DNA of 64,000 bases. It comes from Psychrobacillus sp. FSL K6-4046 (GTDB taxonomy: Bacteria > Bacillota > Bacilli > Bacillales_A > Planococcaceae). This document shows positions 26,676 to 60,779 of the stretch, piece by piece. The first letter of the stretch is position 1; the number at the start of each line of letters is the position of its first letter. The notes below the pieces were generated by a model that was not told the DNA's origin, did not search any database, and was given only the letters and a program-made list of their open reading frames with translations. The position numbers and the translations under genes are program-made. The DNA is taken from the NCBI RefSeq assembly GCF_038624605.1, contig NZ_CP152020.1:2969312-3033311 (forward strand), in the 5' to 3' direction.

Positions 26676-26704
26676 TCATTACAGGTGCCTGGCACCTGTA
26701 ATGA
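26676..26704. repeat. REP-like palindrome, copy 1 (next to the RAYT gene)
   Basis: This is a perfect 29-base palindrome: arm TCATTACAGGTGCC (26676-26689), central T, then its reverse complement. It shares the core TTACAGGTGCC-N-GGCACCTGTAA with six other intergenic loci in the window. It lies 177 bases upstream of the RAYT start and about 65 bases upstream of the response regulator start, in the divergent spacer. Confidence 0.9.
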
Positions 26705-26880
26705 ACCGATAACAAAGCGCTATAATTTTATTTCCGATACGATTTTAAGCGATAAAACAAGAATTTAATCGAATATTATCTATAAAAATCAAATTATTGT
26801 GAATATTGCATAATTTCCATTATTGTACATTTTATAGGTTTATAGTATGTTTGTTAAAAGAATAGATGGAGGTTAGAAAA

Positions 26881-27480
26881 ATGGGGAGAATGCGGAGGAT
26901 TTGGCAGCCAGAGATTTATTATCACGTGACAATGAGAGGCAATAATCGACAGAATATTTTCTTGAACGAAGGAGATGTTTCTCTCTTTTTCCGTGCTTTA
27001 CAACGTACATATAAAAAATCGAATTTCATAATTATTGCTTACTGTATTATGAATAATCATTACCACCTTTTGATCCGCTCCCCTGAGACACCACTTTCGG
27101 AAGTGATGTTATCCATCAACAAGACTTACTCAGAATACTTCAAACGTAAATATAATTATTTTGGACAACTCTATGAAACCAGATTTTTTTCCAGTATGGT
27201 TTCCGACCCTATAGGCTTATTAAATGTCAGTAGTTACATTCATCAAAACCCTTTAACGACTTCCAAGGCTATGACCAATAAAATGGAATACTATCCTTAT
27301 AGTTCGTTTCAATATTATTTTTTTGATAAGAAATGTGACTATCCTTTTGTAAACACCGAGCTACTTCCCAATTTAATAAAAAACTACCCTGATATTAAAG
27401 AAAGAACCTACGTAGCTTATTGTGAAAATTTTCGGATTAAACAAGATTTACATTTTGACTACGAGATTCCTACTAATTAA
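26881..27480 (+). CDS. REP-associated tyrosine transposase (RAYT; Y1_Tnp HUH family)
   Basis: I choose ATG 26881 because TGGAGG lies 8 bases upstream; an ATG at 26866 overlaps that site. The 199-residue protein has the Y1/IS200-like fold: N-terminal HVTMRGNNRQNIF, the HUH metal motif H60-Y-H62 in CIMNNHYHLLI, the helix region GQLYETRFFSS, and the nucleophile Y119 in SSYIHQNPL, the pattern of RAYT rather than the shorter IS200 TnpA. No TnpB, second copy or IS ends flank it. A 29-bp palindrome of a dispersed family is 177 bases upstream. RAYTs of proteobacteria nick REP sequences; a corresponding role here is inference. Confidence 0.9.
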   Translation: MGRMRRIWQPEIYYHVTMRGNNRQNIFLNEGDVSLFFRALQRTYKKSNFIIIAYCIMNNHYHLLIRSPETPLSEVMLSINKTYSEYFKRKYNYFGQLYETRFFSSMVSDPIGLLNVSSYIHQNPLTTSKAMTNKMEYYPYSSFQYYFFDKKCDYPFVNTELLPNLIKNYPDIKERTYVAYCENFRIKQDLHFDYEIPTN

Positions 27481-27629
27481 ATTAATTGGATGTACAACAT
27501 GTGAATAATGGAGACAGTGGTACCAACCTGCAAAGACATGCTTTCCTACCAGAACCATCTCATGTCCTTCATTAAACGAGCTGTAAATTGCAACAAATTT
27601 ATAACATCAGTTCATTTTTCAAAGAAAAG

Positions 27630-27660
27630 AATCGCTCCTATTCTTAGCCTAGGAGCGATT
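27630..27660 (-). terminator. terminator of ilvE
   Basis: A perfect 12-bp stem (GAATCGCTCCTA with TAGGAGCGATTC) around a 9-base loop is followed on the minus strand by TTTTCTTTG. It lies just after the ilvE stop codon. Confidence 0.8.
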
Positions 27661-27667
27661 CACACTT

Positions 27668-28741
27668 TTATTTTAGTTCTGTAACCCAGCCAAAAGGATC
27701 TTCCACTGTGCCACTTTGGATGCCAGTCAATGTATCATATAATTTCTTAGATAACTCACCAGTTTCTCCGTTATTTACATAGAATAGCTCGCCTTTCCAG
27801 CGAAGCTCACCAATTGGAGAAATAACTGCAGCAGTCCCTGTTCCAAACGCTTCTTCTAGCTTACCGTTTAAATAAGCTTCTCTAACTTCCTCCATTGACA
27901 CCTTGCGTTCCGCTACCGGCACACCCCAATATTTTAATAGCTCGATAATGGATTTTCTAGTAATGCCATCTAGAATAGAACCGTTTAAGGCTGGAGTAAC
28001 AACCTCTCCATCTATTTTAAAGAAAACATTCATGCTTCCTACTTCTTCAATATACTTTCGTTCAATTCCATCTAGCCATAATACTTGCGAGTAACCCTCT
28101 CTATCAGCCACTTCCTGTGCCTTTAAGCTAGAAGCATAATTACCAGCTGTTTTAGCCATTCCTGTACCACCCGCCACTGCACGAACGTATTCACTTTCTA
28201 CTAATATTTTCACAGGATGGATACCTTCTTTATAATAAGAGCCAACGGGCGACATAATAATCATAAAGCTATAAGTCTTAGATGGAGAAACACCTAAATG
28301 TGCTTCAGTCCCAATCATAAATGGTCGGATATATAGAGATGTTCCTGGTTCATTTGGAATCCATTCCTTATCAATCTCAAGCAGCTCTTTTAATGCTTCC
28401 ATAGCAAACTCTTCATCTATTTGAGGCATACTAAGTCGATCGCAGGAAATATTCATACGTTTCATGTTTTGTTCTGGTCGAAATAAACGAACTACACCAT
28501 CCTTAGACAAATACGCTTTCATGCCTTCAAATACCGTTTGCCCATAATGTAATATAGTTGCAGAAGGGTCTAACGTAATCGGTTGATAAGGGACAATCCG
28601 ATGATCATGCCATCCAATGCCTGTTGTATAGTCTGCAATAAACATATGATCTGTAAATTTAGTACCAAAGGCAAGTTGGCCGGCAGGTGTTTTCTCATTT
28701 TTTATTTCATTTTCTGTAAACTTGATTTTTACACTGTTCAT
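27668..28741 (-). CDS. ilvE: branched-chain-amino-acid aminotransferase
   Basis: This fold-type IV PLP enzyme carries out the last step of leucine, isoleucine and valine synthesis and the first of their breakdown. The 357 residues match the BCAT-II length. Landmarks are GQTVFEGMKAY, SLYIRPFMIGTEAHLG, the Schiff-base lysine K197 in GTGMAKTAGNYASS, and the cofactor block IEEVGSMNVFF. ATAGGGGT precedes the ATG. It is monocistronic, with no other ilv/leu genes nearby and no T-box leader that I can see. Confidence 0.95.
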   Translation of the reverse strand: MNSVKIKFTENEIKNEKTPAGQLAFGTKFTDHMFIADYTTGIGWHDHRIVPYQPITLDPSATILHYGQTVFEGMKAYLSKDGVVRLFRPEQNMKRMNISCDRLSMPQIDEEFAMEALKELLEIDKEWIPNEPGTSLYIRPFMIGTEAHLGVSPSKTYSFMIIMSPVGSYYKEGIHPVKILVESEYVRAVAGGTGMAKTAGNYASSLKAQEVADREGYSQVLWLDGIERKYIEEVGSMNVFFKIDGEVVTPALNGSILDGITRKSIIELLKYWGVPVAERKVSMEEVREAYLNGKLEEAFGTGTAAVISPIGELRWKGELFYVNNGETGELSKKLYDTLTGIQSGTVEDPFGWVTELK

Positions 28742-28989
28742 GTTGTATTACCCCTATCAATTTAATTATTTAGTAAATTGCAACTTTTATAACTGTGCAA
28801 TATATTATATGCAATTATACTCCTTTTCTCAAAATTGAAAACACCTTTTTTAGAAAATTTTCTAAAAATTTTGTGTATTTTTAACTCTACTTTTCATTTT
28901 TGTAAATTTAAAGGAATTATATCTTAATATCCCTTTAAATAAACCGATAAATAAGTATAGTAAAATACCAAAAGATAGGAGGTTTATAT

Positions 28990-30626: not shown

Positions 30627-30688
30627 CTGCTCAGGGTATGTACATGCATACCCTCCATTACATAGAGAAAGAGGTAAATAGGATACAT

Positions 30689-32143
30689 ATGAAAAATCAA
30701 CTTATGAAAAAGCCGATTGTTACCCTGATGGCTTTATTCCTTATACTAAGCTTAGGGACAAATGAAGCTAGCGCGAAGGTTCCAGATTTTAATGGTGGCA
30801 TTTTAGACGAGTATTCTTATGAAGAGGTATTTTTTCTAAGCGGCTCACCAATTACATTCACAGGGAAAGCAACTGTCACTGAAAAAGAAAGTAAAAACCA
30901 ATTAACTTCTACTTATAAATTCAATTTAAGTAATCAATATGGAGATAAATTAACAAGAAGCGTGGTCTATATCACTGATTTGACAACTCATGTTAAGAAA
31001 AATCAAACTACGGCTCAAACTACAGTTAAAAGCTACTCCGAAAAAGTAACTTTAGCTGATAAAACGACATTTACCTTGGATGATTATCAGTTTTCTCAAG
31101 GTTCGGTTATTGATAACCGCCCAGCAACTGATTATTATTCGGGGAATATAATTGCAAGAAAGATTTATAAGCGTAGTCAAAAAATCGGAAGAGAAACAAT
31201 TAATGATTTAATTACTGTTTATATGGAAGGAAATAATGTTGGCTACAAAAATTTCTGGGGCTCCACTGACACTCAGTTGATTGACTATGAAATAGATTCC
31301 CCGCAAGGGACTTCATTTGTATCTAGCAAGGTTTCTGACAGTAAATCTAGAGTATTAGAATACGAAAAGCATATTCCCTCTCTATCAAGCTTTGTAGGTG
31401 GACACTCAGTTGTAAGCAAGTCAAACATGGTAGCAGAATATGATTATCAGATTCCATTTAATCCATACAACACAACAGGGACTGCATACATTAATAAAGA
31501 TAAAACACCAACAATTGAAAGACTTATCGTCCCTAAGTTTCGTGATATTGAAAAGCATTGGTCCAAGCCAAATATTGAAAAACTATATTCTTTAGGTATT
31601 TTTGATGAAACAAGTAACTTCTTCTCTCCTGATGCAGCAATGAAAAAAGACCTTTTCACTGTAGCTGTGGCTAAAGCTGTAGACTTGCGTGTACTAGAAG
31701 AAAAACCAAAAAACAAGAAGAATATACGAAAAGCATTATTTTCAGATTTAGATATTAATGATCCGAACTATGTATATATTGAAAGCGCACTAAATAAAGA
31801 AATTGTAACTCCAGTGAATGCTGACATATTTGGAGCAAATAAATCTATCACTAGAGCAGAGGCAGTAACTATTATTATTCGCTCTCTTGGATTAGAGGGA
31901 CGTGCACCAACCCCTGGTTACACCACGAAGTTTATTGACGACAACAAAATACCAAAATCAGCTAAGGATAGTATCTATGTCGCAAGTGAACTAGGTCTAA
32001 TTGATCCAGATAGAAAAAATCGCATCAACCCTAACGAAGTCCTTACAAGAGGAAAAGCATCACAGCTACTTGTTAGATATATGAACTTCCTTGAATCTGA
32101 CCTAAAACAAAACTATCGCGATGACATGATTAATTTCAACTAA
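30689..32143 (+). CDS. S-layer-homology (SLH) domain surface protein
   Basis: I place the start at ATG 30689 (MKNQLMKKPIVTLMAL), preceded by AAAGAGG; a second ATG at 30704 is also possible. The 484-residue protein has a signal peptide cleaved near NEASA, a beta-rich body of about 30-275 of unknown type, and three C-terminal SLH domains (about 280-335 RDIEKHWSKPNIEKLYSLG; 345-410 with TRAEAVTIIIRSLGL; 415-475 with TRGKASQLLVRYM). SLH domains bind pyruvylated secondary wall polymers, so it is held at the cell surface. It follows the frameshifted secreted protein gene and may work with it. Confidence 0.88.
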   Translation: MKNQLMKKPIVTLMALFLILSLGTNEASAKVPDFNGGILDEYSYEEVFFLSGSPITFTGKATVTEKESKNQLTSTYKFNLSNQYGDKLTRSVVYITDLTTHVKKNQTTAQTTVKSYSEKVTLADKTTFTLDDYQFSQGSVIDNRPATDYYSGNIIARKIYKRSQKIGRETINDLITVYMEGNNVGYKNFWGSTDTQLIDYEIDSPQGTSFVSSKVSDSKSRVLEYEKHIPSLSSFVGGHSVVSKSNMVAEYDYQIPFNPYNTTGTAYINKDKTPTIERLIVPKFRDIEKHWSKPNIEKLYSLGIFDETSNFFSPDAAMKKDLFTVAVAKAVDLRVLEEKPKNKKNIRKALFSDLDINDPNYVYIESALNKEIVTPVNADIFGANKSITRAEAVTIIIRSLGLEGRAPTPGYTTKFIDDNKIPKSAKDSIYVASELGLIDPDRKNRINPNEVLTRGKASQLLVRYMNFLESDLKQNYRDDMINFN

Positions 32144-32148
32144 ACTCA

Positions 32149-32197
32149 AAACCCCATCTAAACACCGGCGAATGCACCGGTTCTAGATGGGGTTTTT
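32149..32197 (+). terminator. terminator after the SLH protein gene
   Basis: The stem AAACCCCATCTA (about 32149-32160) pairs with TAGATGGGGTTT (about 32184-32195), with an inner CACCGG/CCGGTT extension, and is followed by TTTTTC. It starts 6 bases after the stop codon. Confidence 0.85.
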
Positions 32198-32213
32198 CAC
32201 TTGATTGCAGATA

Positions 32214-32242
32214 ATGTTACAGGTGCCTGGCACCTGTAACAT
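32214..32242. repeat. REP-like palindrome, copy 2, with a degenerate tail copy
   Basis: This is a perfect 29-base palindrome: arm ATGTTACAGGTGCC, central T, reverse complement. It is followed at 32243-32270 by a decayed partial copy ending in ATACCTGTAACATA. It lies between the converging SLH gene and glycerate permease gene, downstream of the SLH terminator. Confidence 0.9.
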
Positions 32243-32269
32243 AGGTGGCCTAGACATACCTGTAACATA

Positions 32270-38549: not shown

Positions 38550-38576
38550 TATTACAAGTGCCTGGCACCTGTAATA
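38550..38576. repeat. REP-like palindrome, copy 3 (one mismatch)
   Basis: The arm TATTACAAGTGCC (38550-38562), central T, and GGCACCTGTAATA (38564-38576) pair except at one position (A opposite C). It lies between the chemoreceptor stop and its terminator, upstream of the group II intron. Confidence 0.85.
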
Positions 38577-38592: not shown

Positions 38593-38631
38593 AAAAATAG
38601 ACGCCCACGTTAGAGGGGGCGTCTATTTTTT
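38593..38631. terminator. strong terminator of the chemoreceptor gene; target of the group II intron
   Basis: A perfect 14-bp stem (AAAAATAGACGCCC at 38593-38606 with 38617-38630) with a 10-base loop ends in a T run. The intron starts three bases later at GTGCG. Before insertion this hairpin would also have been the terminator of the converging M20 peptidase gene, because its A-rich side gives T on the minus strand. Confidence 0.9.
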
Positions 38632-38633
38632 AT

Positions 38634-40514
38634 GTGCGCCCGGCATGCGCATGAACTATAGGGTGCAAGTCCCGAACCCCGAAGACAGAAGTAGAGGTTA
38701 GCCGAGAGCAAGGGTGTCCGTGGTGACGCGGAATCTGAAGGAAGCTGGAGGCAAATCACCGGTCCGAGGAACACGAATCTCATAGAAGGCTAGGTATGAT
38801 TGAGTGAGTTTGCATAACAAAACAAAGCTCTTTCTGTCGAAGGTCATACCAAGTAAATGAGGCGGATAGATGGTGTGAAAGTGCATGCGCTTACCCGGGG
38901 AGGTCTGATGGAAACGTGAAGTACCCTTCATAACCCACTCCATGAGGAGTGGCTGAACCATCAGAAGTCAGCAGAGGTCATAGTACGAATGGGTCTAGAA
39001 CCACTCGGAAGGACCGAACAATTAAGAGAGAATAGCCCTTGGCTTTCCAACTTGGATGTTTGAACACAGAAAACTAGTGCCTCACGCTTAGAAAGTAGTG
39101 GTGAATCCCACGAGGGTATTTGCGGAGGGTGTAGTCCAGTTGGGCAAAAGAAGATAAGCTATTCACGGAAAGGAACGAAATGGTGATGTTGAATCAGATA
39201 CTTGAACGGAAAAACATGATGCAAGCGTTAAAGCGAGTGGAAGCGAATAAAGGAAGCCATGGAGTAGACATGATGCCCGTACAAACCTTACGACAGCACA
39301 TCCTCGAAAATTGGAAAACTATTAAATCGCAGATTTTAAATGGAACCTATGAACCACAGCCAGTACGTCGAATCGAAATCCCGAAACCAGACGGTGGTGT
39401 GCGTCTATTAGGTATTCCAACCGTGACAGATCGTTTGATTCAACAAGCTATATCGCAGATACTATCTGAGGAATATGATAAAACATTTTCGGATTACAGT
39501 TATGGATTCCGACCAAATCGGAGTGCCCATGATGCCATTCGAAAAGCAAAGGGTTATATAAAAGAGGGTTATCGATGGGTTGTGGATATGGATTTAGAGA
39601 AATTCTTTGATAAGGTCAATCATGACCGACTAATGGCAACGTTAGCGAAACGAATTTCAGATAAACCTTTACTAAAACTCATTCGTAAATATCTCCAATC
39701 CGGTGTCATGATAAATGGCGTAGTTTCCAGTACAGAAGAAGGAACCCCGCAAGGTGGACCTCTAAGTCCACTCTTATCAAACATCGTATTAGACGAACTT
39801 GATAAAGAGTTAGAGAAACGTGGACATAAATTCGTACGGTACGCAGATGATTGCAATATCTATGTGAAGAGTGAACGGGCAGGGGTACGAACAATGGCGA
39901 GTGTACAACGATTTATTGAAGGAAAACTTCGACTGAAAGTTAACGAAAAGAAATCGGCAGTGGACCGCCCTTGGAATCGGAAATTCTTGGCGTTTAGCTT
40001 TACTGCTCATAAAGAACCGAAGGTTCGTATTGCAAAAACAAGCCTACAACGAATGAAGAAGAAAATACGAGAAATTACCTCTAGAAAGATGCCATATTCC
40101 ATGGAATATAGAATCGAAAAGTTGAACCAATATCTAGTGGGATGGTGTGGATATTTCGCCTTAGCAGATACACCTACCACATTTAAAACACTGGATAGCT
40201 GGATTAAACGAAGGTTACGTATGTGCCTGTGGAAGGATTGGAAGAAACCTCGAACAAGAGTTAGAAATCTTACTCGATTAAAAGTTCCTTATGGGAAAGC
40301 TTACGAGTGGGGAAATACTCGAAAAGGGTACTGGCGCATTTCTAAAAGCCCCATATTACACAGAACCCTCGGCAAATCCTTTTGGGAAAGCCAAGGGCTG
40401 AAAAGTCTGCAAGTTCGTTACGAAACTTTGCGTTATTCATCTTAATTGAACCGCCGTATACGGAACCGTACGTACGGTGGTGTGAGAGGTCGGGAGTTAA
40501 TCACTCCCTCCTAC
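38634..40514 (+). mobile_element. group II intron (group IIC-like, bacterial class C)
   Basis: The 5' end GTGCGCCCGGCATGCGC at 38634 fits the GUGYG start of group II introns. The 3' end has a domain V-like hairpin at about 40448-40478 (CCGCCGTATACGG ... CCGTACGTACGGTGG), then a domain VI stem (AGGTCGGGAGT / ACTCCCTCCT) with an internal A, closing with AC at 40513-40514. The intron of 1881 bases carries one RT gene in domain IV. It sits immediately after a Rho-independent terminator, the hallmark target of group IIC introns, and its protein lacks an endonuclease domain. All parts look intact, so it may still splice. Confidence 0.88.
39180..40445 (+). CDS. ltrA: group II intron reverse transcriptase/maturase
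   Basis: The 421-residue intron-encoded protein has the RT domain (about 15-290) with the blocks SYGFRPNRSAHDAI, WVVDMDLEKFFDKVNHD, GTPQGGPLSPLLSNI and the catalytic YADD at 221-224, followed by the thumb/maturase X domain (about 300-400: YLVGWCGYFALADTP, RRLRMCLWKDWKKP). It stops there, with no HNH endonuclease domain, as in class C introns, which integrate without second-strand cleavage. It helps the intron RNA fold and splice and copies it at new sites. An ATG at 39186 is an alternative start. Confidence 0.93.
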   Translation: MVMLNQILERKNMMQALKRVEANKGSHGVDMMPVQTLRQHILENWKTIKSQILNGTYEPQPVRRIEIPKPDGGVRLLGIPTVTDRLIQQAISQILSEEYDKTFSDYSYGFRPNRSAHDAIRKAKGYIKEGYRWVVDMDLEKFFDKVNHDRLMATLAKRISDKPLLKLIRKYLQSGVMINGVVSSTEEGTPQGGPLSPLLSNIVLDELDKELEKRGHKFVRYADDCNIYVKSERAGVRTMASVQRFIEGKLRLKVNEKKSAVDRPWNRKFLAFSFTAHKEPKVRIAKTSLQRMKKKIREITSRKMPYSMEYRIEKLNQYLVGWCGYFALADTPTTFKTLDSWIKRRLRMCLWKDWKKPRTRVRNLTRLKVPYGKAYEWGNTRKGYWRISKSPILHRTLGKSFWESQGLKSLQVRYETLRYSS

Positions 40515-42117
40515 TCGATTTGTATAAGCTTTTAATAAGGGTTTCTAGCATTACTGGCATTTCAACAAAAGCACTGTCTATATGTAGTCTTTCTGTTTTT
40601 TGATGAGCATCCTTGCCGAATGGTCCTACGTTCAGTACAGGTCCCTTTAATTTAGCCATATCATCAAATGGGATATCATAGGTATCTCCCCATACTGGTG
40701 TATTGCTTTCAAATGCTGTCCAGCCGTTTCCATCGTCTTCATAATTTACATAGCTCAAATCGCATATCCCATTAAAATAATGTATTTGTTTTACTGTATT
40801 ATTAAAGGATTGTGCAGATTGCTTCATTAACTCAACCGCTTCTATAATCAGTGGATCCTTGGATGTGTTAACCGCTGGATAATATGGTGGAGCAAAGAGC
40901 AACACGGTAGCTGGTGAAAGCTCCTGGCATTGAATCATGAGATTATCTACTATTCGAAGTGATTTTTCACGATCGTCCCATTCCTCTTCCGCAAGTACTT
41001 CTTGCTTAAGTCTTTGAACTTCCTCTATGCCTAATTTTTTATTCGCATACGCAAGCAGCTCGTCATATTTCAAAACTCTGACCTGTCCAATTCCTTGGAC
41101 CTGCTCTCTATCACAAATTTGTTGATAGGTTTTATTCAAAGCGTCCATTGCCTCATTCGCAACCTGTTCAAACAGTTCCATAATGTCAGAAGCAGTTCTT
41201 CTTAATAAAAACACGTTGTACAAAGCAACTGCTCGGTACGGTGTCTGCGTTGAATAAGACATTTTCAAATCCTTTTGCTGTAAAGAAACTGGCAACGGAG
41301 TACTTTCTCCAAGGTCATGCTCTGTAAATATAGGATTATATTCCATTCGCTGTGTTAAGAAAGAAGCAATATAGTTAGCCGTCATCCCTTTCATCGGCTC
41401 TCCTACATGAGTTTCCTTTCCGTAAAACAGCGCAGCGGGCATAATTTTACCGATCGTACCAGAGTAGATATACTCGTCAATATCCTTTGGCACCTGTGAA
41501 AACGAAGGTTCACTATTTAAAAATAGCTTATATGATAAATTAAACTCTTCACGTATTCGAACTAGCTGAGTAACAGCCGCACGCATACCAGCAGAATTTA
41601 CCTCTTCATCAGGTACACTTGTGAGAATTAAATTAATTGGCCATTCTTCCACAGTAGCTTTTTCAATCAACTGCATATGTAAGGCTAATCCCATCTTCAT
41701 ATCCATCGTTCCACGACCAAACAAATACTTCCCGGTTGCCAAATCTTCTTGAGCATCCTCCGGTAGCTCACTAGGATTTTCCATTAACTTTCTAGTTAAC
41801 TCCTCCGGAAAATAAGCTAAAGGCTCCAAAGTACCATATTCTTCTGTCTGCACAGTATCGAAATGACTAATAAGCACAACTGTTTCTGTTGCAGAAGGAT
41901 GCTTATATAATGCCGTCACTACCTGTCTTCCCAAGCCTGCATCGTGAAGCTGGAGCTGACTCGGATGAGTTTGAAAATACTCAAGCTCTCGAATCTTTTC
42001 TATTAACTTAGGAGCAAACTCCCTTTCTCCATCCGTTAACGTAATACTGTTCCAGCTCACAAGCTCACACAATAATTCACGCAGTCGATCTGGCGTATCC
42101 CATAAAAGCTTATTCAT
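40501..42117 (-). CDS. M20-family peptidase, RocB-like; last codons supplied by the group II intron
   Basis: The 538-residue cytosolic metallopeptidase resembles B. subtilis RocB of the arginine-degradation regulon. Metal-site residues are visible: H85 in ISHFDTVQ, D139 in GRGTMDMKMG, and E171/E172 in SVPDEEVNSAG. AGGAGGA precedes the ATG. The intron ends at 40514, so the final codons (end of SSRRE and the TGA) lie in intron DNA on its antisense strand. Joining 38633 to 40515 restores a frame ending SNKK-stop within the terminator stem, so the insertion replaced only the last few residues. Activity is probably kept, but the gene's own terminator is now 1.9 kb away. Confidence 0.88.
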   Translation of the reverse strand: MNKLLWDTPDRLRELLCELVSWNSITLTDGEREFAPKLIEKIRELEYFQTHPSQLQLHDAGLGRQVVTALYKHPSATETVVLISHFDTVQTEEYGTLEPLAYFPEELTRKLMENPSELPEDAQEDLATGKYLFGRGTMDMKMGLALHMQLIEKATVEEWPINLILTSVPDEEVNSAGMRAAVTQLVRIREEFNLSYKLFLNSEPSFSQVPKDIDEYIYSGTIGKIMPAALFYGKETHVGEPMKGMTANYIASFLTQRMEYNPIFTEHDLGESTPLPVSLQQKDLKMSYSTQTPYRAVALYNVFLLRRTASDIMELFEQVANEAMDALNKTYQQICDREQVQGIGQVRVLKYDELLAYANKKLGIEEVQRLKQEVLAEEEWDDREKSLRIVDNLMIQCQELSPATVLLFAPPYYPAVNTSKDPLIIEAVELMKQSAQSFNNTVKQIHYFNGICDLSYVNYEDDGNGWTAFESNTPVWGDTYDIPFDDMAKLKGPVLNVGPFGKDAHQKTERLHIDSAFVEMPVMLETLIKSLYKSSRRE

Positions 42118-42169
42118 ACTAATCCTCCTAACAAAATATTTTTTATATTTATATAGTTTATTTTACATT

Positions 42170-42194
42170 ATTTCAAGTGCCTAGCACCTGTAAT
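42170..42194. repeat. REP-like palindrome, copy 4 (degenerate)
   Basis: The arms ATTTCAAGTGCC and AGCACCTGTAAT around a central T pair at 9 of 12 positions. It lies between the M20 peptidase start and the terminator of the HEAT-repeat gene, and is the most decayed full-length copy. Confidence 0.75.
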
Positions 42195-42213
42195 ATTTCA
42201 TCCATAAATATAC

Positions 42214-43182: not shown

Positions 43183-43198
43183 TATGCTTTTTTATGAT

Positions 43199-43227
43199 AT
43201 GTTACAGGTGCCAGGCACCTGTAACAT
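43199..43227. repeat. REP-like palindrome, copy 5
   Basis: This is a perfect 29-base palindrome with arm ATGTTACAGGTGCC and central A, so relative to copies 1-4 it is inverted. It lies 5 bases beyond the end of the last membrane protein of the putative immunity array. Confidence 0.92.
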
Positions 43228-43231
43228 AGTG

Positions 43232-44041
43232 TTATGCCTCTATCCTTGGTTTTCTTCTTCGCTCAGTTTTTTGTTCTCCTATGGAGTAAAGGTAACCTCG
43301 CTCACTAAAGTTAAAACTCTTATACTTACACTTACAATATAAAATGATTAGCTGCTCCGGTAAGACTGCTATCATTGCGTAAAATACAATCATGCCCAAA
43401 ACAAGGATACCCGGAGTACTGCTGTCGTAGTAATTAGAGTTATGAGAGATCCACTTCGTTATAAGTAAAAATAGAGCTCCCCCTATTAATACGACTTTTG
43501 GAACAAACGACATATTTGCTAGTTCGTTTCTTTGCTCTTCTTTTTTGGAGCCTTTTCGATAGTGCCCTTTTTTAAGCAAGATATAATAACGGACCATTAT
43601 GATAATAAATAATAAGAGTGCTACAGCTAAAATAACGTAGGCAATTTGCATTAAGGTATCCGCATCATTTGTCATGCCCTCATCCTCTAAACCTATTGTA
43701 AATAGGGAAATAATCAGGAATGAAATGGAACCGACATTATGGGAAACCAAAATGGAAAGTGCGTACTGTATCCTTTCACTTCTTTTATAAACAAACGGGA
43801 TAGAATACACAATACTCAACCCTATTAAACCAACAGTAAGCCAAAAATGTATGTTAATTATCTCCTCTTTAAACGGAAAAAGAGAGTAAGGTGCTGCTAA
43901 ATAATAATTTAAGGCAAACATTAATGCTTGTAAAAAAATACCTAGTATTAATACAACACTAATACTTTCTCTACTTTGGCGACCAGATTCTAACGGTTCC
44001 CTTAATACTTCAAAATCTTCCTCCCTTAATTGGCCCCTCAT
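43232..44041 (-). CDS. six-TM membrane protein, putative T7SS toxin immunity paralog 4
   Basis: This 269-residue protein is the most distal of four tandem paralogs downstream of the LXG toxin. All share an N-terminal cytosolic motif (here LREEDFEVLREPLESGRQS), about six hydrophobic segments, a basic loop KKGHYRKGSKKEEQR between TM4 and TM5, and a C-terminal tail (EQLIILYCKCKYKSFNF, then ERGYLYSIGEQ). It departs from the shared RGPLESGRQSP pattern (REPLESGRQSR). The gene is followed by a REP-like palindrome. Function is inferred from location only; I do not recognise a named family. Confidence 0.75.
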   Translation of the reverse strand: MRGQLREEDFEVLREPLESGRQSRESISVVLILGIFLQALMFALNYYLAAPYSLFPFKEEIINIHFWLTVGLIGLSIVYSIPFVYKRSERIQYALSILVSHNVGSISFLIISLFTIGLEDEGMTNDADTLMQIAYVILAVALLLFIIIMVRYYILLKKGHYRKGSKKEEQRNELANMSFVPKVVLIGGALFLLITKWISHNSNYYDSSTPGILVLGMIVFYAMIAVLPEQLIILYCKCKYKSFNFSERGYLYSIGEQKTERRRKPRIEA

Positions 44042-44048
44042 TTACTAG

Positions 44049-44870
44049 TCAACTCCTAATCTCTTTGCTAAGCTTCTTCCCTCGTTTTCTCTTAAGCATT
44101 TGATCTCCTACAGAATACAAGTAGCCTCGCTCATTAAAATTGAAGCTTTTGTATTTATACTTACAATATAAGATGACTAACTGCTCAGGTAGGACAAACA
44201 GCATGACAAAAAAGAGACCGATACCAATCGTAATGATTAAAACAGAGTCTATATTAAACTCAGGCATTACTCTTACAACATATTGCATAATGAGCACTAT
44301 AATTAAACCAAAGACAACAGCAGGAAAAATTAGAAGAGTAGTATTTTTTTCTAGTTGACCTCTAATCTGATCCTTCTTGCTTCCCTTTCTATAATGTCCT
44401 TTTTTCAATAAAATATAAAATCTTATACATGTAGCGAAGAAGACCAAGAAACCACAGCTAAGGATAAGATATGTAACCTTGAGCAATTTCTCTGCACTTA
44501 CCACTTCTCCCCCTGTATCCTCTCCAATTAAAAATAGGGCACAGATAAACAAAGAGAAGGATAATAAATTTTGCGAAACTAATATAGAGACTAAATACTG
44601 AATTCTATCAAACTTTCTATAAACTATTGGTATAGCAAAAACAAGCGACAGTATAATTAAAGCAACTGTAAAATATAAATGAATCTCTATAATTTTCTCT
44701 TTATAAGGAAACACTGTATTTGGACCAACCATGAAATATTCTAATAAAAATACTAAGGCTTGTAGAAAAACTGTTATAAATAATATTGCCCCTAAACTTC
44801 CTGGACTTTGTCTACCAGATTCTAACGGTCCCCTTAATACTTCAAAATCTTCCTCCCTTAATCTACCCAT
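44049..44870 (-). CDS. six-TM membrane protein, putative T7SS toxin immunity paralog 3
   Basis: I align the start with the paralogs at ATG 44870 (MGRLREEDFEVLRGPLESG); an upstream ATG at 44891 adds seven residues (MGSLERL) and its codons overlap the probable GGGGAG ribosome binding site. The 273-residue product has six hydrophobic segments and the array's basic loop (KKGHYRKGSKKDQIRGQL) and tail (KYKYKSFNFNERGYLYSVGD). It is the most diverged in TM5-TM6 (VVFGLIIVLIMQYVVRVM). It is 7 bases from the next paralog, so the four genes form one operon. Confidence 0.72.
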   Translation of the reverse strand: MGRLREEDFEVLRGPLESGRQSPGSLGAILFITVFLQALVFLLEYFMVGPNTVFPYKEKIIEIHLYFTVALIILSLVFAIPIVYRKFDRIQYLVSILVSQNLLSFSLFICALFLIGEDTGGEVVSAEKLLKVTYLILSCGFLVFFATCIRFYILLKKGHYRKGSKKDQIRGQLEKNTTLLIFPAVVFGLIIVLIMQYVVRVMPEFNIDSVLIITIGIGLFFVMLFVLPEQLVILYCKYKYKSFNFNERGYLYSVGDQMLKRKRGKKLSKEIRS

Positions 44871-44897
44871 TAGTCTTTCTAAACTCCCCATTCATTT

Positions 44898-45695
44898 TTA
44901 AGCCTCTATCCCTCGTTTTCTTTTAACCTTTTGATCCTCACTAGAATACAAATAGCCTCGTTCATTAAAATTAAAGCTCTTATATTTATACTTACAATAT
45001 AAGATGACTAGCTGCTCGGGTAATATGAACATCATTACGAAAAATGCAAGGATTCCCCCAATAATGATAGCAATAGTGTTACTGTCATCGTAATTGGAGT
45101 TTTTGGAGATGTACTGAATTACAAATACTAGTCCAATTCCACCTACTATTGCGCCTGGAAGAAAGGACATAGATTCTAATTTACTTCTTTGTTCATCTTT
45201 TTTAGAGCCTTTTCGATAATGACCTTTCTTTAGCAAAATATAAAAACGGATAAACGTAACTATAAATATTAAAATTCCTATAGCCAAAATAATATAGGTG
45301 ATTTGCAATAAAGAGTCTTTATTCGTGTTTATGCCCCCATTTTCCATCCCTATTAAAAACAAGGATACAAGTAAAAAAGGAATGGATGACATATTTTGTG
45401 TAACAATAATTGAAATTAGATATTGTATTCTTCCGCTTCTGTTATAAACATAGGGAATGGAATAAAGCACACATAATCCAATTAAGACGGCAGTAAGCCA
45501 AAAATAAAAATTCATTATCTCTTCCTTATTTGGAAATGTGGTAACGTCCTTCACCATAAAATAGAGTAAAGCAAACATTAATGCTTGTATAAAAATACCT
45601 AGTATTAATGCAAATCCAAGACTTCCTGGACTCTGTCTGCCAGATTCTAACGGTCCTCTTAAAACTGCAAAATCTTCCTCCCTTAATCTACCCAT
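44898..45695 (-). CDS. six-TM membrane protein, putative T7SS toxin immunity paralog 2
   Basis: This 265-residue product has hydrophobic segments near 27-47, 64-83, 92-115, 128-154, 178-196 and 207-231. With paralog 1 it shares long near-identical stretches in the C-terminal third (GSKKDEQRSKLESMSFLPGA, then the MMFILPEQLVILYCKY block and SSEDQKVKRKRGIEA), pointing to recent duplication or gene conversion. The N-terminal half is more divergent, particularly in the extracytoplasmic loops, the pattern expected if those loops decide which toxin is recognised. Confidence 0.75.
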   Translation of the reverse strand: MGRLREEDFAVLRGPLESGRQSPGSLGFALILGIFIQALMFALLYFMVKDVTTFPNKEEIMNFYFWLTAVLIGLCVLYSIPYVYNRSGRIQYLISIIVTQNMSSIPFLLVSLFLIGMENGGINTNKDSLLQITYIILAIGILIFIVTFIRFYILLKKGHYRKGSKKDEQRSKLESMSFLPGAIVGGIGLVFVIQYISKNSNYDDSNTIAIIIGGILAFFVMMFILPEQLVILYCKYKYKSFNFNERGYLYSSEDQKVKRKRGIEA

Positions 45696-45724
45696 TATTT
45701 TAATGAGTCAACTCCATTCATTTA

Positions 45725-46519
45725 TTAAGCTTCTATCCCTCGTTTTCTTTTAACCTTTTGATCCTCACTGGAATACAAATAGCCTCGCTCATTAAAATTA
45801 AAACTCTTATATCTATACTTACAATATAAGATGACTAGTTGTTCTGGTAAAATGAACATCATCACAAAAAAGGTGAGGATGCCCCCTACAATGAGAATAG
45901 CAAAATTAGAATCATCGAAAGCTGAATTTTTAGCAAGATACTGTATAACAAATACTACTCCAACTCCACCTGCAATAGCACCTGGAAGAAATGACATAGA
46001 TTCTAATTTACTTCTTTGTTCATCCTTTTTAGAGCCCTTACGATATTGGCCTTTTTTAAGCAAAATATAAAAACGTATAAATGTGGAGATTAGAATAAAT
46101 AAACCTAGGGATAAAATAACATACGTAACCATTAACAAAGATTTTGTACTAGTTATTGCCCCCCCGTATGTAGACCCTAATAAAAACAGGGACAATAGTA
46201 AAAAAGGGAATGTAGACATATTATGCGTAACAAGGATACTCAGTAAATATTGGATTCTACTACTTTTTCTATATACTGCAGGTATGGAGTAAATAATAGA
46301 AAATACACTTAGAATTATAGTCAACCATAAATGAACACTTAAAATTTTCTCATGATTAGGGAATAAAGTCTCTCCCTTTGTCAAATATGAGAGGACTCCA
46401 TACAGTAGTGATTGTAAAAATATACTTATTATTAAAACAAAACTAATATTGCTTGGACTCTGTCTGCCCGATTCCAACGGTCCCCTCAATACTGAAAAAT
46501 CTTCTTCTACTAATCTCAT
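45725..46519 (-). CDS. six-TM membrane protein, putative T7SS toxin immunity paralog 1 (toxin-proximal)
   Basis: The 264-residue product is the first gene after the LXG toxin (18 bases downstream), the position normally held by the cognate immunity gene. It starts MRLVEEDFSVLRGPLESG and has the same six-segment layout, basic loop KKGQYRKGSKKDEQR and C-terminal tail as its three paralogs. Multi-TM immunity proteins are known for membrane-acting LXG toxins; in S. aureus the TspA toxin is followed by several copies of the DUF443 membrane protein. I cannot show homology to DUF443; the comparison is one of architecture. Confidence 0.75.
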   Translation of the reverse strand: MRLVEEDFSVLRGPLESGRQSPSNISFVLIISIFLQSLLYGVLSYLTKGETLFPNHEKILSVHLWLTIILSVFSIIYSIPAVYRKSSRIQYLLSILVTHNMSTFPFLLLSLFLLGSTYGGAITSTKSLLMVTYVILSLGLFILISTFIRFYILLKKGQYRKGSKKDEQRSKLESMSFLPGAIAGGVGVVFVIQYLAKNSAFDDSNFAILIVGGILTFFVMMFILPEQLVILYCKYRYKSFNFNERGYLYSSEDQKVKRKRGIEA

Positions 46520-46537
46520 CTTAAACCCACACTTTCT

Positions 46538-48103
46538 TTAGCGGAACCATCCTTTAATATGATCCATAGCAGATTTTCCGCCCTCTTTCTTACTAGTCAA
46601 TGCTATATTAGCAAGTATCCCTAAACCTACACCAATAGCAGTTCCAACACCTGGAATAGGAATCGCAACTGTGAAACCTACGGTAAATGCAGTCTGGACT
46701 GCTCCACCAACCGCAGTCTCTACAGCTGTGTCAACTGTTGCTCTGGCGGCTGCTTTCCCACCACTAAGCCCTTCACTTTTAGCTGTATTATAATTACTAA
46801 AATAATTGGCTGCTGCTCCTATTGGTCCTAATGCTTTGGTTACGCCTTTAAGTCCAGGTTGAGCCATTCCTTTAATGTCTACAATATCCTTAAAAGACTT
46901 TCCTATTCCTTTTGCTGTAGCGGTACCAACAGTTTTAGCTTTTTCAACGCTAGTAGCCTTGTCATTCCAATATGCAAGATTAGGATGTTTTTTTAATACC
47001 TCATCCCCGGTAGTTGACCACCCACTAGAATTTGGTTTTTGTGTGGCATACTTTAAATCCGTAGTATTATTTATTGCTTTTTCGTGATGTTTTTTACTCC
47101 ATTTTTTATCTCCCTTAGGAAGACCTTTGTTAAAGTCTCTAAGTGCTTCAGCATCAGGAACTACTTTTAAATGCTTCAATGCTTCACCGTTTGCCTGAAT
47201 CTTATGTGTATACTTTCCTGTTTTCGAGTCATATACACGTGAAGTTCTTAACACTCCTTTTTTACCGGCTTGATACATACCATAACTTGATACTAGACCA
47301 GTAGTAGCAGTATTAATACGTTTTAGGAGCCCTACTTCCTCTTTAATCTTATCCACATCACTTTTGGTATTAGCCACGTCATTTGGGTCACTGGACTGAT
47401 CCTTATCCTCTACATGTTCTAAGGATGGGTCTTGGGTATCTAGTTCGGTTTTAAGGGGGTGTTCCGCCGTATAGTCCTTCCATACATCCGCCTGGAAATC
47501 TATGTCTGATAGTCCATCATTCATCATGCCCTCAATGTCTAATAACCATTGTTCCATACTTAATAAATCCTTTTCAACAAAAAGGAGATTATTCGTTTGA
47601 GTCATATCAAATTCACATAAATCCGAAACCGTTAGATCTCTCTTTTTTCGAGAATCATTAACGCCTTGCTGTACTTCACTATCGTTTAAATGTGGGAGCG
47701 CAACAATATCAGATACCTGATCCATAATAGAATTAGACTCGTCTGTAAGTGATTCTGTAATTTTAGAAATGGCGGTTAGTCCCTCTTCCACTTCTCCCTC
47801 TAAAAATGTTTGCTTAATATAACCATTTGGATCTGGCTCTAACCCCTCTAAAGCTAGCTTCATCTGAGAAAGCCTTTCCTTAAATCCTGTTTGAAATATC
47901 GTAAAAAACTGAAGGAAAGGGATGTGACAATCGTTGTAAAATGCACGAATGGTATTTCCACCTTGACCCTTTAAATGATCCTCCATTGCGACGAGACCGC
48001 TGATTGTCTTTTGAATTTGCTGCATTTCCTGTTCTACCCGTGTGAGCATATCTGTGTTTCGCTGTATACCGTCTTGAAAAGGACGAACATCAAGGACTTT
48101 CAT
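46538..48103 (-). CDS. LXG-domain T7SS effector with hydrophobic glycine-rich C-terminus
   Basis: I choose ATG 48103 (GGAGGT 7 bases upstream); the 15 upstream codons are not coding. The 521-residue protein has an N-terminal helical LXG secretion domain (about 1-210) with the name-giving L-K-G at 44-46 followed by IRAFY, an acidic linker (about 215-255), then a variable C-terminal region. Its last 60 residues contain a hydrophobic stretch (about 462-502) rich in Gly/Ala (GGAVQTAF, IPGVGTAIGVGLGILANIA), close to glycine-zipper or pore-forming elements. No nuclease or NADase motif is visible. The cluster of multi-TM proteins downstream fits a membrane-targeting toxin. The mechanism is inferred. 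Confidence 0.85.
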   Translation of the reverse strand: MKVLDVRPFQDGIQRNTDMLTRVEQEMQQIQKTISGLVAMEDHLKGQGGNTIRAFYNDCHIPFLQFFTIFQTGFKERLSQMKLALEGLEPDPNGYIKQTFLEGEVEEGLTAISKITESLTDESNSIMDQVSDIVALPHLNDSEVQQGVNDSRKKRDLTVSDLCEFDMTQTNNLLFVEKDLLSMEQWLLDIEGMMNDGLSDIDFQADVWKDYTAEHPLKTELDTQDPSLEHVEDKDQSSDPNDVANTKSDVDKIKEEVGLLKRINTATTGLVSSYGMYQAGKKGVLRTSRVYDSKTGKYTHKIQANGEALKHLKVVPDAEALRDFNKGLPKGDKKWSKKHHEKAINNTTDLKYATQKPNSSGWSTTGDEVLKKHPNLAYWNDKATSVEKAKTVGTATAKGIGKSFKDIVDIKGMAQPGLKGVTKALGPIGAAANYFSNYNTAKSEGLSGGKAAARATVDTAVETAVGGAVQTAFTVGFTVAIPIPGVGTAIGVGLGILANIALTSKKEGGKSAMDHIKGWFR

Positions 48104-48168
48104 AAGGATACCTCCACTAATCAGTGTTATATTTTCTATCCAAAACATCGATAGTCATTACGCTTAGA

Positions 48169-48219
48169 TTTTAGTTGGTATGTTACAGGTGCCTGGCACC
48201 TGTAACATACCAACTAAAA
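48169..48219. repeat. REP-like palindrome, copy 6 (extended arms)
   Basis: This is a perfect 51-base palindrome: the core arm ATGTTACAGGTGCC is extended outward by TTTTAGTTGGT, so each arm is 25 bases around a central T. It lies inside the T7SS effector operon, between the second DUF5085-like gene and the LXG toxin start. No T run follows on the transcribed strand, so it is not a standard terminator, though the hairpin could still affect readthrough or mRNA stability. Confidence 0.92.
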
Positions 48220-57886: not shown

Positions 57887-57956
57887 CCTGAACACCCTCT
57901 TTCGTACCCTGATAGTTTATTAAAATAGCCAAATAATAAGTGAGTAGTTTCTAACA

Positions 57957-59369
57957 TCAATTAGCTGCGTTTTCTTCAGCTGCTGGTGTTTCTGGTGCAG
58001 CTGGTGGTGCTTCGGTTGCAGTTGGTGTTTCCGGAGTCGCAGGTGCTGGTGTTTCTGCTGGTGCGGTTTCTGATACTGGTGCAGCCTCCGGTTCTGCTGT
58101 TTCATTTTTTGCTTCTTTTTCTTTTTCTATTTTCTGTGCTTCTTCCTCTGCCTCTTTTTCAGCTTCCTCAGCTTCTAGCATTAGCTTTTCAAATTCCTCT
58201 ACCTCTTGGTCAATTTCATTCAGAAGAATTTGCATTTCTTCACCAGTAAGGTCTTTGTCTGCTTTAACTTCCTCGCGTCTTTTTAGTAACCCAAAGGTAA
58301 TTAGCTCTCCGTCCTCCATCGCTCTTGCTATATCCACTGCATCTTCTGCCTCACCTCGACCTAGGTGAATCCAATATTTCAAGTACTCTGCATCTGTTTG
58401 AAGGGTTATATTAGATAACACATTTTTCTTTTGTTCTTCGTCTAATCTTTCATTAGTAACCGATGCGTACGCTAACTCATACAGAACAATGTAGGGCATC
58501 CCTTTTATCGAATAAGGTTCTAATAAGGTCACTACCTGACTATAATTTTGTCCTAGAAAGTATTCATGGCTAAGTGTATAAGCTTCGTTCTTTGGCTTTT
58601 CATGTACAAAATAAATGATAGTAAAAATGATTGCAGGAAGAATTAGAATGCCAAGTCCGATTGCTAAGTATTTAGTCCACTTCCATTTCTTTCTTGGTAG
58701 CTTGATATTGCCCATTTCTACGATTTCAAGCTGTTCCATTTTTTCTGTAATATAGTCCAATAGAGCTTGGTTATCCTTCATACCCATGATGGTAGCTCCA
58801 ACTTCCTTGAGCTCTAATATTTCGGAGTACTTTAAGTACTCTTCAAAGGTGAATGAATTGTCTATGGCTGCTGCTACCACTGCTTTTGTTTCAAGCCAGA
58901 GCCTATCTTCATCTGTTTCATACGGAGGTAAACTTCCTAATACACCATAGTAAAGAAACATTGGATCCAAAGCCTTGCTAAAGATTATATTTTCCGGGCA
59001 TACTATTAGGTTTAGTCGGGGATAAGGGTGAGAGTAAACCTTTTCTACTAGCTGATAACCTAGCATCCACCTAGATTTTTCTTCTTCTCGATGAATGTCT
59101 CTAAAACGCATATGGTCTTTTGGAATCTCGGCTTGAACGATTAATTCGTCGTCAGTAATAACAATCTCCTTAGAGATCTTTGGGTTAACTTCTTTTAGGA
59201 AGATTATTTCCTCGGTACGCTTAAAAGCAACTCTTTCCTTTTGAAATACAAAGGTGGTTTTATTGGCTTCCTCATTAATTTCCGCACCCGTACGATTTTT
59301 CAAATATGTATATGGTCTATCTTTAAGTTTGGTTTTTGTTTTGCTCATATCTTTCTGTTTAGGGGCCAT
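57957..59369 (-). CDS. essB: type VII secretion protein EssB (YukC)
   Basis: I start at ATG 59369 (MAPKQKDMSKTK), 8 bases after AAGGAG and 13 bases after the esaB stop; the upstream ATG at 59396 would overlap esaB. The 470-residue protein has a cytosolic pseudokinase domain (about 20-215), one TM helix (about 226-250, YLAIGLGILILPAIIFTIIY), an extracellular helical dimerisation domain of about 255-395, and an unusual C-terminal tail of about 425-470 rich in Pro/Ala/Glu/Thr (ETPAPATPETPTATEAPP). EssB bridges EssC and EsaA. Low-complexity tails in EssB vary and are probably disordered. Confidence 0.94.
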   Translation of the reverse strand: MAPKQKDMSKTKTKLKDRPYTYLKNRTGAEINEEANKTTFVFQKERVAFKRTEEIIFLKEVNPKISKEIVITDDELIVQAEIPKDHMRFRDIHREEEKSRWMLGYQLVEKVYSHPYPRLNLIVCPENIIFSKALDPMFLYYGVLGSLPPYETDEDRLWLETKAVVAAAIDNSFTFEEYLKYSEILELKEVGATIMGMKDNQALLDYITEKMEQLEIVEMGNIKLPRKKWKWTKYLAIGLGILILPAIIFTIIYFVHEKPKNEAYTLSHEYFLGQNYSQVVTLLEPYSIKGMPYIVLYELAYASVTNERLDEEQKKNVLSNITLQTDAEYLKYWIHLGRGEAEDAVDIARAMEDGELITFGLLKRREEVKADKDLTGEEMQILLNEIDQEVEEFEKLMLEAEEAEKEAEEEAQKIEKEKEAKNETAEPEAAPVSETAPAETPAPATPETPTATEAPPAAPETPAAEENAAN

Positions 59370-59382
59370 GTCCATTTCTCCT

Positions 59383-59622
59383 TCAAATGATTTCAATTCG
59401 GTCGCCGGTCGTAATGCCGCATTCAGACATTGTTAAATGCCCAGGGAATAATTTATCCTTGTTTACCACGCGTATCCAATGACCCTCACGCTTTGGGTTG
59501 GAAATGGAAGCGGCCTGCCACGCAATATCAATCATCTTTTTCATCGTGTAGTAATCAGATAGTCGGAGGTCAATAACTTTCCCGTTATACTTTGAAAGGT
59601 CAACTGTAATTTCTATATACAA
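59383..59622 (-). CDS. esaB: ubiquitin-like T7SS protein EsaB (YukD)
   Basis: This small cytosolic T7SSb protein has the ubiquitin fold: 79 residues, the standard length, with YIEITVDLSKYNGKVIDLRL, KKMIDIAWQAA and the GITTGDRIEII end. It starts with TTG, preceded by GGAGAGGTG. It is the second gene of the operon, just before essB. It is required for secretion in B. subtilis; its exact action is not settled. Confidence 0.92.
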   Translation of the reverse strand: MYIEITVDLSKYNGKVIDLRLSDYYTMKKMIDIAWQAASISNPKREGHWIRVVNKDKLFPGHLTMSECGITTGDRIEII

Positions 59623-59738
59623 AATGTAACACCTCTCCTAAAGAGTGTAAGCTTGCTTAAAATAGTTGAAAATGAAGGAAAAGCGCCTTCCAATATGGAA
59701 TGACGCTCTATATATTGCATCCTGAACAATACTCCAAG

Positions 59739-60032
59739 TTACCCTCTGATTTGGCTTGCAATTTGTTGATCTGCATCTTGTAGAGCTTGACCAGTGCGGC
59801 TTAACTGTACGCTAACTTCGCTTAATAGCTCACGCATATCATTGAAATGTGGCTTAAGTCTTTCATATTGTTCAGCAAAGGCTGCACTAGAAGCACCTTC
59901 CCACATAGATTGCAATTCACCGATCATACCGTCCAAACGACCGATTTGAGAAGCAACCTCACTTGACTCATGACTGTAACGTGATGCCATTGCATCCAAC
60001 TCAGCTGGTGTTACGCGAATAATTCCTGACAT
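59739..60032 (-). CDS. esxA: WXG100 protein EsxA (YukE)
   Basis: The start is ATG 60032 (MSGIIRVTPAELDAMA), with GGGAG 9 bases upstream; an ATG at 60041 directly abuts that site. The product has 97 residues, exactly the size of EsxA/YukE, with a helical hairpin and the W44-E-G46 turn. It is secreted as a dimer and needed for T7SSb activity. As first gene of the operon, its promoter must lie in the AT-rich region beyond 60033. Confidence 0.96.
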   Translation of the reverse strand: MSGIIRVTPAELDAMASRYSHESSEVASQIGRLDGMIGELQSMWEGASSAAFAEQYERLKPHFNDMRELLSEVSVQLSRTGQALQDADQQIASQIRG

Positions 60033-60720
60033 TTCATACATCTCCCTTTTGTTTAGTATTTTGATGAATTTATAAAATAACTGTGAGAGCTAACTACAAG
60101 ATGAACTTGCCGTTCCTTCACAGATACTTCCAATACACTTTACTTCTTTTACCAAATACATTACAAATATTTTACAGAAAATATTTGTTAATGGATATTT
60201 TTTACTTTTAATATACTTCTAACTATTTAATTTACTAAAAAAACCATTTACTATAGCCATATCCCCCTATTTGGTAATCTCTAAACCTCTTACCTTATAT
60301 TTTTTTTAGAGATTAAAAGGAGTTTAAGTCCATTGCCTAATATAATAAATAACATTCTCAAACTAAGTAGTCAAAGCATCCAAAAAAATCAAAAAATAAC
60401 CTTAGAACTAAACGCTCATAGACTTTTGTCCCGTTAATTTAATATTTTAAATTTAATAATATATTTTTACTCTAGATAATTTATTATTCAAACTAAAATA
60501 TCAATAATTTATCATTCTTAACATAAACCAATTATTTTGACCCATTTTTTGTAACATAGCATCTATCAAATATCTTAGTTCGAAGATACTTGAACTCATA
60601 ATAACTTCCATCAAAAATTTTCTCCAACTCTCCATTCCATTACAAAAACATTACAGAAAACATTAAAAACATCATTATAAATACCATTTTTATTTGTTCA
60701 GATGCTGTGTTATATGGGCC
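60033..60720. other. long AT-rich upstream region of the T7SS operon
   Basis: This stretch of almost 700 bases has no convincing gene and is much richer in A and T than its surroundings (many runs such as TTTAATATTTTAAATTTAAT). It must hold the esxA promoter and probably regulator sites. I see no clear protein-coding remnant. A 60-codon frame at 60640-60822 is only a read through the palindrome and is not called. Confidence 0.5.
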
Positions 60721-60725
60721 CAGTT

Positions 60726-60779
60726 TGTTACAGGTGCCAAGTATGTTACAGGTGCCTGGCACCTGTAACATACTTGGCA
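60726..60779. repeat. REP-like palindrome, copy 7 (extended), with an adjoining half copy
   Basis: A perfect 45-base palindrome (arm 60735-60756, core ATGTTACAGGTGCC preceded by TGCCAAGT; central T at 60757; complement to 60779) is preceded by a half copy TGTTACAGGTGCC at 60726-60738 in direct orientation. It lies in the spacer between esxA and the DinB-like gene, about 700 bases from the T7SS start codon. Confidence 0.92.

Follow-up and report, generated by a model that had tools for sequence, protein, structure and literature searches.

A REP-like palindrome family in Psychrobacillus and its probable link to a neighbouring RAYT gene

The window, a stretch of 64,000 nucleotides (nt) from the 3.886-Mb chromosome of the soil bacterium Psychrobacillus sp. 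FSL K6-4046 (positions 2969312-3033311), carries a gene for a REP-associated tyrosine transposase (RAYT; REP, repetitive extragenic palindromic) and seven copies of a palindrome (Table 1). We denote the source genome as G000, a genome of the same species as G101, and the other relatives compared by further G numbers. All seven palindrome loci named in a preliminary description of the sequence were found at the positions given there. As it had also claimed, the first copy lies just upstream of the RAYT gene, its centre 176 nt before the start, and a mismatch search found none in the first 26.6 kb. Dinucleotide shuffles gave no palindrome match. Five copies are perfect, rather than the four described; the copy with a single mismatch and the decayed copy are both present, the latter failing the pairing filter of the copy collection introduced below. 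The view that all seven loci carry the same arm holds for the family and not for the exact sequence: the copy centred at 26690 reads TCATTACAGG rather than TGTTACAGG, so that a strict 27-mer at ≤3 mismatches recovers five of the seven. The genome-wide count proposed as a check, made with a 23-mer at ≤3 mismatches in G000 and G101, gave 32 copies in G000, which are clustered in the genome.

Table 1. Palindrome copies and the RAYT gene in the window
Feature	Position in window	Strand	Details
Palindrome upstream of RAYT	26676..26704		perfect 29 nt, centre 26690, arm 14; decayed outer arms to about 26666-26714
RAYT, 204 aa Y1 HUH transposase (P0001)	26866..27480	+	PF01797 58.7 bits; HUH motif NHYH, tyrosine motif YIHQNP
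Palindrome	32214..32242		perfect 29 nt, centre 32228, arm 14; convergent gap, behind ordinary terminator
Palindrome	38550..38576		centre 38563; one unpaired position
Decayed palindrome	42168..42196		centre 42182
Palindrome	43198..43228		perfect 31 nt, centre 43213 = A, arm 15
Full-length palindrome	48169..48219		perfect 51 nt, centre 48194, arm 25
Palindrome	60735..60779		perfect 45 nt, centre 60757, arm 22; imperfect pairing to 60726-60788

Pfam found only Y1_Tnp (PF01797) in the RAYT protein, P0001. Its predicted model (mean pLDDT 79.7) had as best solved-structure match 4er8, a RAYT from E. coli bound to a REP hairpin (E 1.4e-7, TM 0.71 by target length, 16% identity); a sequence-profile search of solved structures gave no match. 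NHYH was invariant in an alignment of 16 relatives; the NP of the tyrosine motif was not, being IP in G006 and NH in the G004 type. By the same model, IS200/IS605 transposases would be alike in HUH/Y1 fold and hairpin substrate. They differ in that the IS200/IS605 profile NF033573 scored 19.7 bits against a cut-off of 55 and that G000 has no near-identical copies, its two PF01797 genes being 42-44% identical to each other.

To describe the element, we collected 163 copies from fetched regions of seven genomes (core at ≤2 mismatches, with 10 or more of the 12 inner positions paired; 30 of the 32 G000 copies included), 91 of them with arms of at least 20 nt. The compact repeat first described is present, yet it covers only the interior of a longer, near-perfect palindrome that measures about 45-51 nt and has the arm TRTTACARNNNTRTTACDGGTGCC. 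The pooled arm of the 91 long copies reads T-R-TTAC-A-R-N-N-N-T-R-TTAC-D-GGTGCC, followed by A or T and the complement, where D is T in 62%, A in 25%, and G in 13%; each arm thus holds two RTTAC modules, 11 nt apart. The centre base is A in 83 and T in 80 copies, and never C or G. Shorter copies keep 11-19 nt of arm, and two keep only 6. When six single-stranded copies were folded as DNA, the energies ranged from -13.7 to -27.4 kcal/mol, with z-scores between -4.4 and -12.5; the single-base loop claimed earlier is true of the sequence, while the predicted fold has a 3-nt loop. Copies lie between open reading frames (ORFs) in 159 of 163 cases, or 157 under other settings; the four remaining in the first count comprise three inside ORFs of a crude caller and one at a sequence edge. 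Viral contigs, searched with the exact degenerate 23-mer, and plasmids, searched with one 61-nt query, gave no palindrome match.

Within the genus, palindromes were counted in 19 genomes (by exact core in G001, G003, G010, G011, G015, and G017) and RAYT genes were surveyed in 18. Eight of the 19 were rich, with at least 26 copies (G000 32, G101 35, G001 29, G003 33, G010 38, G011 33, G015 26, and G017 33), three had 2-5 (G006, G012, and G013), and eight had none at ≤2 mismatches (G002, G004, G005, G007, G008, G009, G014, and G016). A looser core search gave 0-5 places in the zero-copy genomes (five each in G002 and G016) and 0-3 for the control. The RAYT was absent from G002 and present in the other 17 of the 18 genomes, 11 of which have it at 63-100% identity and 6 at 49-55%. 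All seven rich genomes tested have a palindrome 176-259 nt upstream of the RAYT, on the upstream side only, and G101 also has the G000 copy; the other ten first-RAYT loci of the genus hold none within 1.5 kb. Outside the genus, none of 83 genomes contained the palindrome. Equal abundance in a genome without RAYT was looked for and not seen, as RAYT-less G002 is among those with zero copies. The expected converse, that a RAYT implies many copies, failed: only 7 of the 17 RAYT-bearing genomes are rich.

This distribution would fit a loss of palindromes. G002 groups with the rich G003 and G011 (support 90/91), and the rich G010 groups with G012, G006, and G016. Behind window position 32143, G012, G006, G016, and G013 are without the palindrome and keep a terminator; at another site the palindrome is still present in G012 and G013, and a decayed one occupies a site common to G016 and G006. 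Independent contrasts of RAYT against copy number yielded one or two supported pairs (two to four on all branches), which gives no power.

The copies are concentrated on one side of the RAYT. From 5 kb before to 100 kb behind the gene there are 11 copies in G000, 16 in G003, 15 in G011, and 10 in G015, where 0.66-0.86 would be expected, and the next 95 kb on the opposite side hold none in the same four chromosomes. This downstream-side 105 kb was the densest such stretch in all four one-piece rich chromosomes, matched by 0.3-1.4% of random points, with cluster limits set after the data had been seen and four genomes that share ancestry. Among 91 cluster copies from seven genomes, 39 were common to another species, 10 were private, and 42 had no alignable fetched site; outside the cluster the corresponding numbers were 23, 12, and 37.

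The core also stands beside RAYT genes of other Bacilli. We examined 47 RAYT loci (the 30 best and 17 further matches of a RAYT search, a few short fragments being left out) for GTGNCWGNCAC within 1.5 kb and found it at 18 of them, with 39 cores in total. The reversed string occurred at no locus, a Markov model gave a mean of 0.45 and a maximum of 3 loci, and 1 of 19 rpoB loci had the core. After removal of the 17 first-RAYT Psychrobacillus loci, 11 of 30 loci retained it. Fifteen of the 18 loci have a core 97-285 nt upstream, and six have one 34-151 nt downstream as well; the core lies 474-792 nt upstream in G046 and at the second RAYT of G000, and inside the matched stretch in G040. Cores on both sides were seen in G034 (201 nt upstream, 119 nt downstream), G051 (200 and 113 nt), G018, with eight cores at its locus that mostly form pairs spaced by 34 nt, G028, where GGTGCCWGGCACC flanks both sides of the second RAYT, G082, and at the second RAYT of G015, which has its own variant. 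G041 has a core 168 nt upstream and a one-mismatch copy just downstream. G082 and G094, which also carry the core, are members of other families, and Rummeliibacillus suwonensis, outside the 47 loci, has two cores upstream of its RAYT. Wider regions held 25 cores in 60 kb of G018, 13 in 74 kb of G041, 8 in 40 kb of G036, 7 in 110 kb of G034, 2 in 23 kb of G053, 1 in 60 kb of G054, and 0 in 100 kb of G004, with 0 for the reversed string. None of 15 more distant RAYT loci (L089-L103) had the core. In a quickly built RAYT tree, rooted at the midpoint and with SH-aLRT as its only support measure, the core-bearing RAYTs are distributed among deep branches.

Across genera the arms differ, and the core and its position relative to the RAYT are constant; the same core with different arms beside RAYT genes of several Bacilli genera is the new observation here. 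G034, G051, and G041 have AATTGTGTG-type arms, often on one side only, and the symmetry of the Psychrobacillus element may therefore be a derived state.

In the G018 stretch (C3:60000-119999; L265-L267) the cores surround two RAYT genes and are mostly arranged as pairs at a 34-nt distance, the spacer between them being variable. At the second RAYT of G000 (L074 5426-5956; G000 position 796425), the upstream cores belong to four CCTGTGTCAGACACAATT-type palindromes, probably a second, separate repeat family.

We interpret the palindromes as a REP-like family of Bacilli that has its own core and is cognate to the RAYT of the window, with a probability of roughly two in three. The link suggested in the preliminary description stood in part: the upstream copy in seven of seven rich genomes, the RAYT-side cluster, and, above all, the common core in other Bacilli argue for it, and the frequent occurrence of RAYT genes without palindromes argues against it. 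The 4er8 match, the distribution of core-bearing RAYTs over the tree, and the complementary arm changes given below count in favour of the cognate interpretation as well. In such a system, the RAYT would recognise the single-stranded hairpin by the core GTGCC-W-GGCAC (GTGMC-W-GKCAC in other genera) and would cut and join it as single-stranded DNA. A past RAYT-driven spread would have carried copies into intergenic DNA, favouring about 100 kb on the gene's own downstream side, and most copies today would be inherited in place. Template switching during replication of the hairpin could keep the arms complementary while their sequence drifts, and could flip the centre base. The family and its full form, the RAYT-adjacent copies in several genera, the clustering, the occupied and empty orthologous sites, and the arm and centre changes are seen directly in the sequences; this template-switch mechanism, as well as recognition and cleavage by the RAYT, we infer.

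Orthologous sites were seen both with and without a palindrome, which indicates that copies have been gained or lost. At L070 about 7565, where G000 and G101 differ, a precise excision was considered and rejected, as the 58 nt removed extend from one foot to ~31 nt past the other. A seemingly private G101 copy at L175 was likewise dropped, as the G000 site there also holds a copy. Because the one clean strain difference is likely a deletion, spread by the RAYT is something that we infer.

Several results weigh against the RAYT-cognate interpretation, beginning with that L070 difference, which reads as a deletion and where G001 also has the copy. The strain comparison produced no clean new insertion, and in an accessory stretch of G101 (L218, C41:3000-19700) six palindromes are without counterpart in the fetched G000 parts. 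Many cluster sites are common to several species, so that common descent, and not renewed formation, may account for the cluster; the choice of its limits and the common ancestry of the four genomes, given above, count here as well. Ten of the 17 RAYT-bearing Psychrobacillus genomes are palindrome-poor (0-5 copies), and 29 of the 47 Bacilli RAYT loci have no core within 1.5 kb. P0001 scored 71.4 bits (E 6.9e-20) with the REP_Tyr_transpos profile NF047646, under the cut-off of 80. GT[AG]G stands at the foot of 6 of 91 full-length copies, compared with 6.8 in the control. Finally, REPs usually exceed 100 copies per genome (PMC2817692), compared with 26-38 in our rich genomes.

Alternatively, the palindromes might be RNA-level elements under selection, serving as 3'-end stabilisers or termination helpers, with the RAYT as a bystander. 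Their placement leans this way: of 89 copies in tandem gaps, 67 are on the upstream stop codon's side of the midpoint, and there are 41 copies in convergent gaps (32.3 expected) and 27 in divergent gaps (34.9 expected). A terminator-like hairpin stands within 75 nt of 54 of the 163 copies, as a raw count, and the palindrome hairpins themselves are predicted to be stable, folded as DNA. However, the copy at aligned sites is often behind a separate intact terminator, and a G.U bias on the coding strand is unconvincing (27 GT against 19 AC mismatches). As selection on RNA also leaves the RAYT-side core in several genera and the cluster unexplained, we consider this explanation unlikely.

A second alternative arises from the way in which the arms evolve. 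Over all 163 copies, the arms differ in sequence at positions 14-17 counted from the centre, yet these positions are paired in 79, 76, 69, and 71%, compared with 33, 43, 35, and 41% expected from the column make-up. In 67 orthologous copy pairs, compared over the stretch paired in both copies and with the same sites recurring across genome pairs, two-sided changes to a different complementary pair numbered 145, where about 12 would be expected, alongside 93 one-sided changes and 22 two-sided changes without pairing; the centre base differed in 21 of the 67. Between G000 and G101, the centre was flipped in 5 of 24 common copies, one of the five being matched on one flank only; a twenty-fifth pair (row 24) had been mispaired with a neighbouring copy 39 nt away and was dropped. 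One of these flips lies within an otherwise identical 53-nt stretch, and another comes with an arm defect on the opposite side. An internal 18-bp duplication was also seen between strains. The family offers a clean case in which palindrome arms change in step and the centre base inverts from strain to strain.

Arm homogenisation and spacer inversion are known outcomes of template switching (PMC8604942), and the RAYT is therefore not needed for the co-change of the arms or the flips. The palindromes could accordingly be of other origin, homogenised by template switching and moved by recombination alone, their proximity to the RAYT being historical. Both outcomes and the internal duplication were found here, and RAYT genes without palindromes are common. 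Nevertheless, template switching places no copies at new sites and does not yield one core with different arms beside RAYTs of other genera, and this origin appears improbable to us. That the palindrome is a double-stranded operator or nucleoid-protein site for a dimer, as its symmetry and the paired RTTAC modules of each arm might suggest, is hardly credible, since arm positions 14-17 differ from copy to copy and nevertheless match up inside each copy, a pattern that suits a folded strand more than an invariant duplex site, and since the palindrome is absent at syntenic sites of several relatives.

Returning to the RAYT-cognate interpretation, the palindromes and their RAYT would, by anatomy, work like a REP/RAYT pair (TnpA-REP, REPtrons) without the classical foot. 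As in those systems, there are intergenic palindromes and a Y1 enzyme gene accompanied by its own repeat, and the best structural match of P0001 is a RAYT-REP complex; like REP elements, the repeat is an intergenic palindrome of 20-50 nt. It differs from them in lacking the GT[AG]G foot and in its W-centred GTGCC core. REPs spread as inverted doublets (REPIN/BIME); the copies of G000 are mostly singlets, with three pairs less than 120 nt apart, and paired cores occur in G018. REP doublets of Pseudomonas fluorescens SBW25 are random in extragenic space (PMC3116915), whereas the Psychrobacillus palindromes cluster near the RAYT. The double-foot REPs of TnpA-Y1 subclass 2.4 resemble our element in being symmetric, with an inverse foot at both ends (PMC6006769). 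Their foot is GT[AG]G, while the outer and inner modules here are RTTAC, and the subclass is described as common in Cyanobacteria and Bacteroidetes, with a scattered presence in other groups (PMC6006769). TIRYT / subclass 2.1 enzymes carry NH[YF]H and Y-x-x-x-NP as P0001 does, a likeness at the level of motifs; they are described without REPs and with a C-terminal helix-turn-helix, which Pfam did not report in P0001 (PMC6006769).

Described REP families include GTAG and CGTC types and relatives flanked by terminal inverted repeats (PMC3733652), and REPs that are perfect palindromes, though they retain GTAG, are substrates of some RAYTs (PMC8266576). The words Firmicutes, Bacilli, and Bacillus are absent from the main text of PMC6006769, which classes such proteins, as is Bacill- from PMC2817692; PMC12306157, a palindrome count that covers three Bacillota and other taxa, does not contain the word RAYT. 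In the open literature, we found no description of a GTGNC-W-GNCAC core or of these repeats, and no title on bacterial repeats was among the matches listed for the core string.

The REP/RAYT literature covered rests on GTAG-foot systems, mainly Gram-negative. A broader proposal, which we hold as tentative, is that Bacilli have their own REP/RAYT branch, with a W-centred GTGNC-W-GNCAC code instead of GTAG and a hairpin, fast-changing arms, an enzyme acting mainly on its chromosomal neighbourhood, and elements inverting in place. Bacilli RAYTs with a common hairpin core and genus-specific arms provide natural swaps for testing what these enzymes read, and the clustering and copy loss inside one genus allow one to trace how such elements are gained, spread locally, and decay.

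Some further features of the RAYT and its surroundings were noted. Its neighbours in the window are response regulator and class IV aminotransferase genes, and named relatives carrying it include Psychrobacillus sp. BL-248-WT-3 (99% identical), P. faecigallinarum, P. vulpis, and P. soli. Residue 100 of P0001, before a conserved QLYET, is G in the rich genomes and also in the poor genomes G007, G005, and G013, and D in the poor genomes G012, G006, G016, G004, G008, and G014. The tyrosine motif of G004-type RAYTs reads YIHQNH.

A group II intron lies at window 38635-40520, with its reverse transcriptase at 39180-40445, directly behind a terminator hairpin (38598-38632); visual inspection of the syntenic G001 stretch L076:6560-8160 did not reveal it. 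Targeting of the palindrome by this intron was ruled out, as it begins behind the ordinary terminator and not at the repeat. Window 43232-48148 holds four tandem paralogous genes of 264-280 aa beside an LXG-domain gene (46538-48148). One of the paralogues was run against Pfam and had no match there; the array looks like immunity genes beside a polymorphic toxin.

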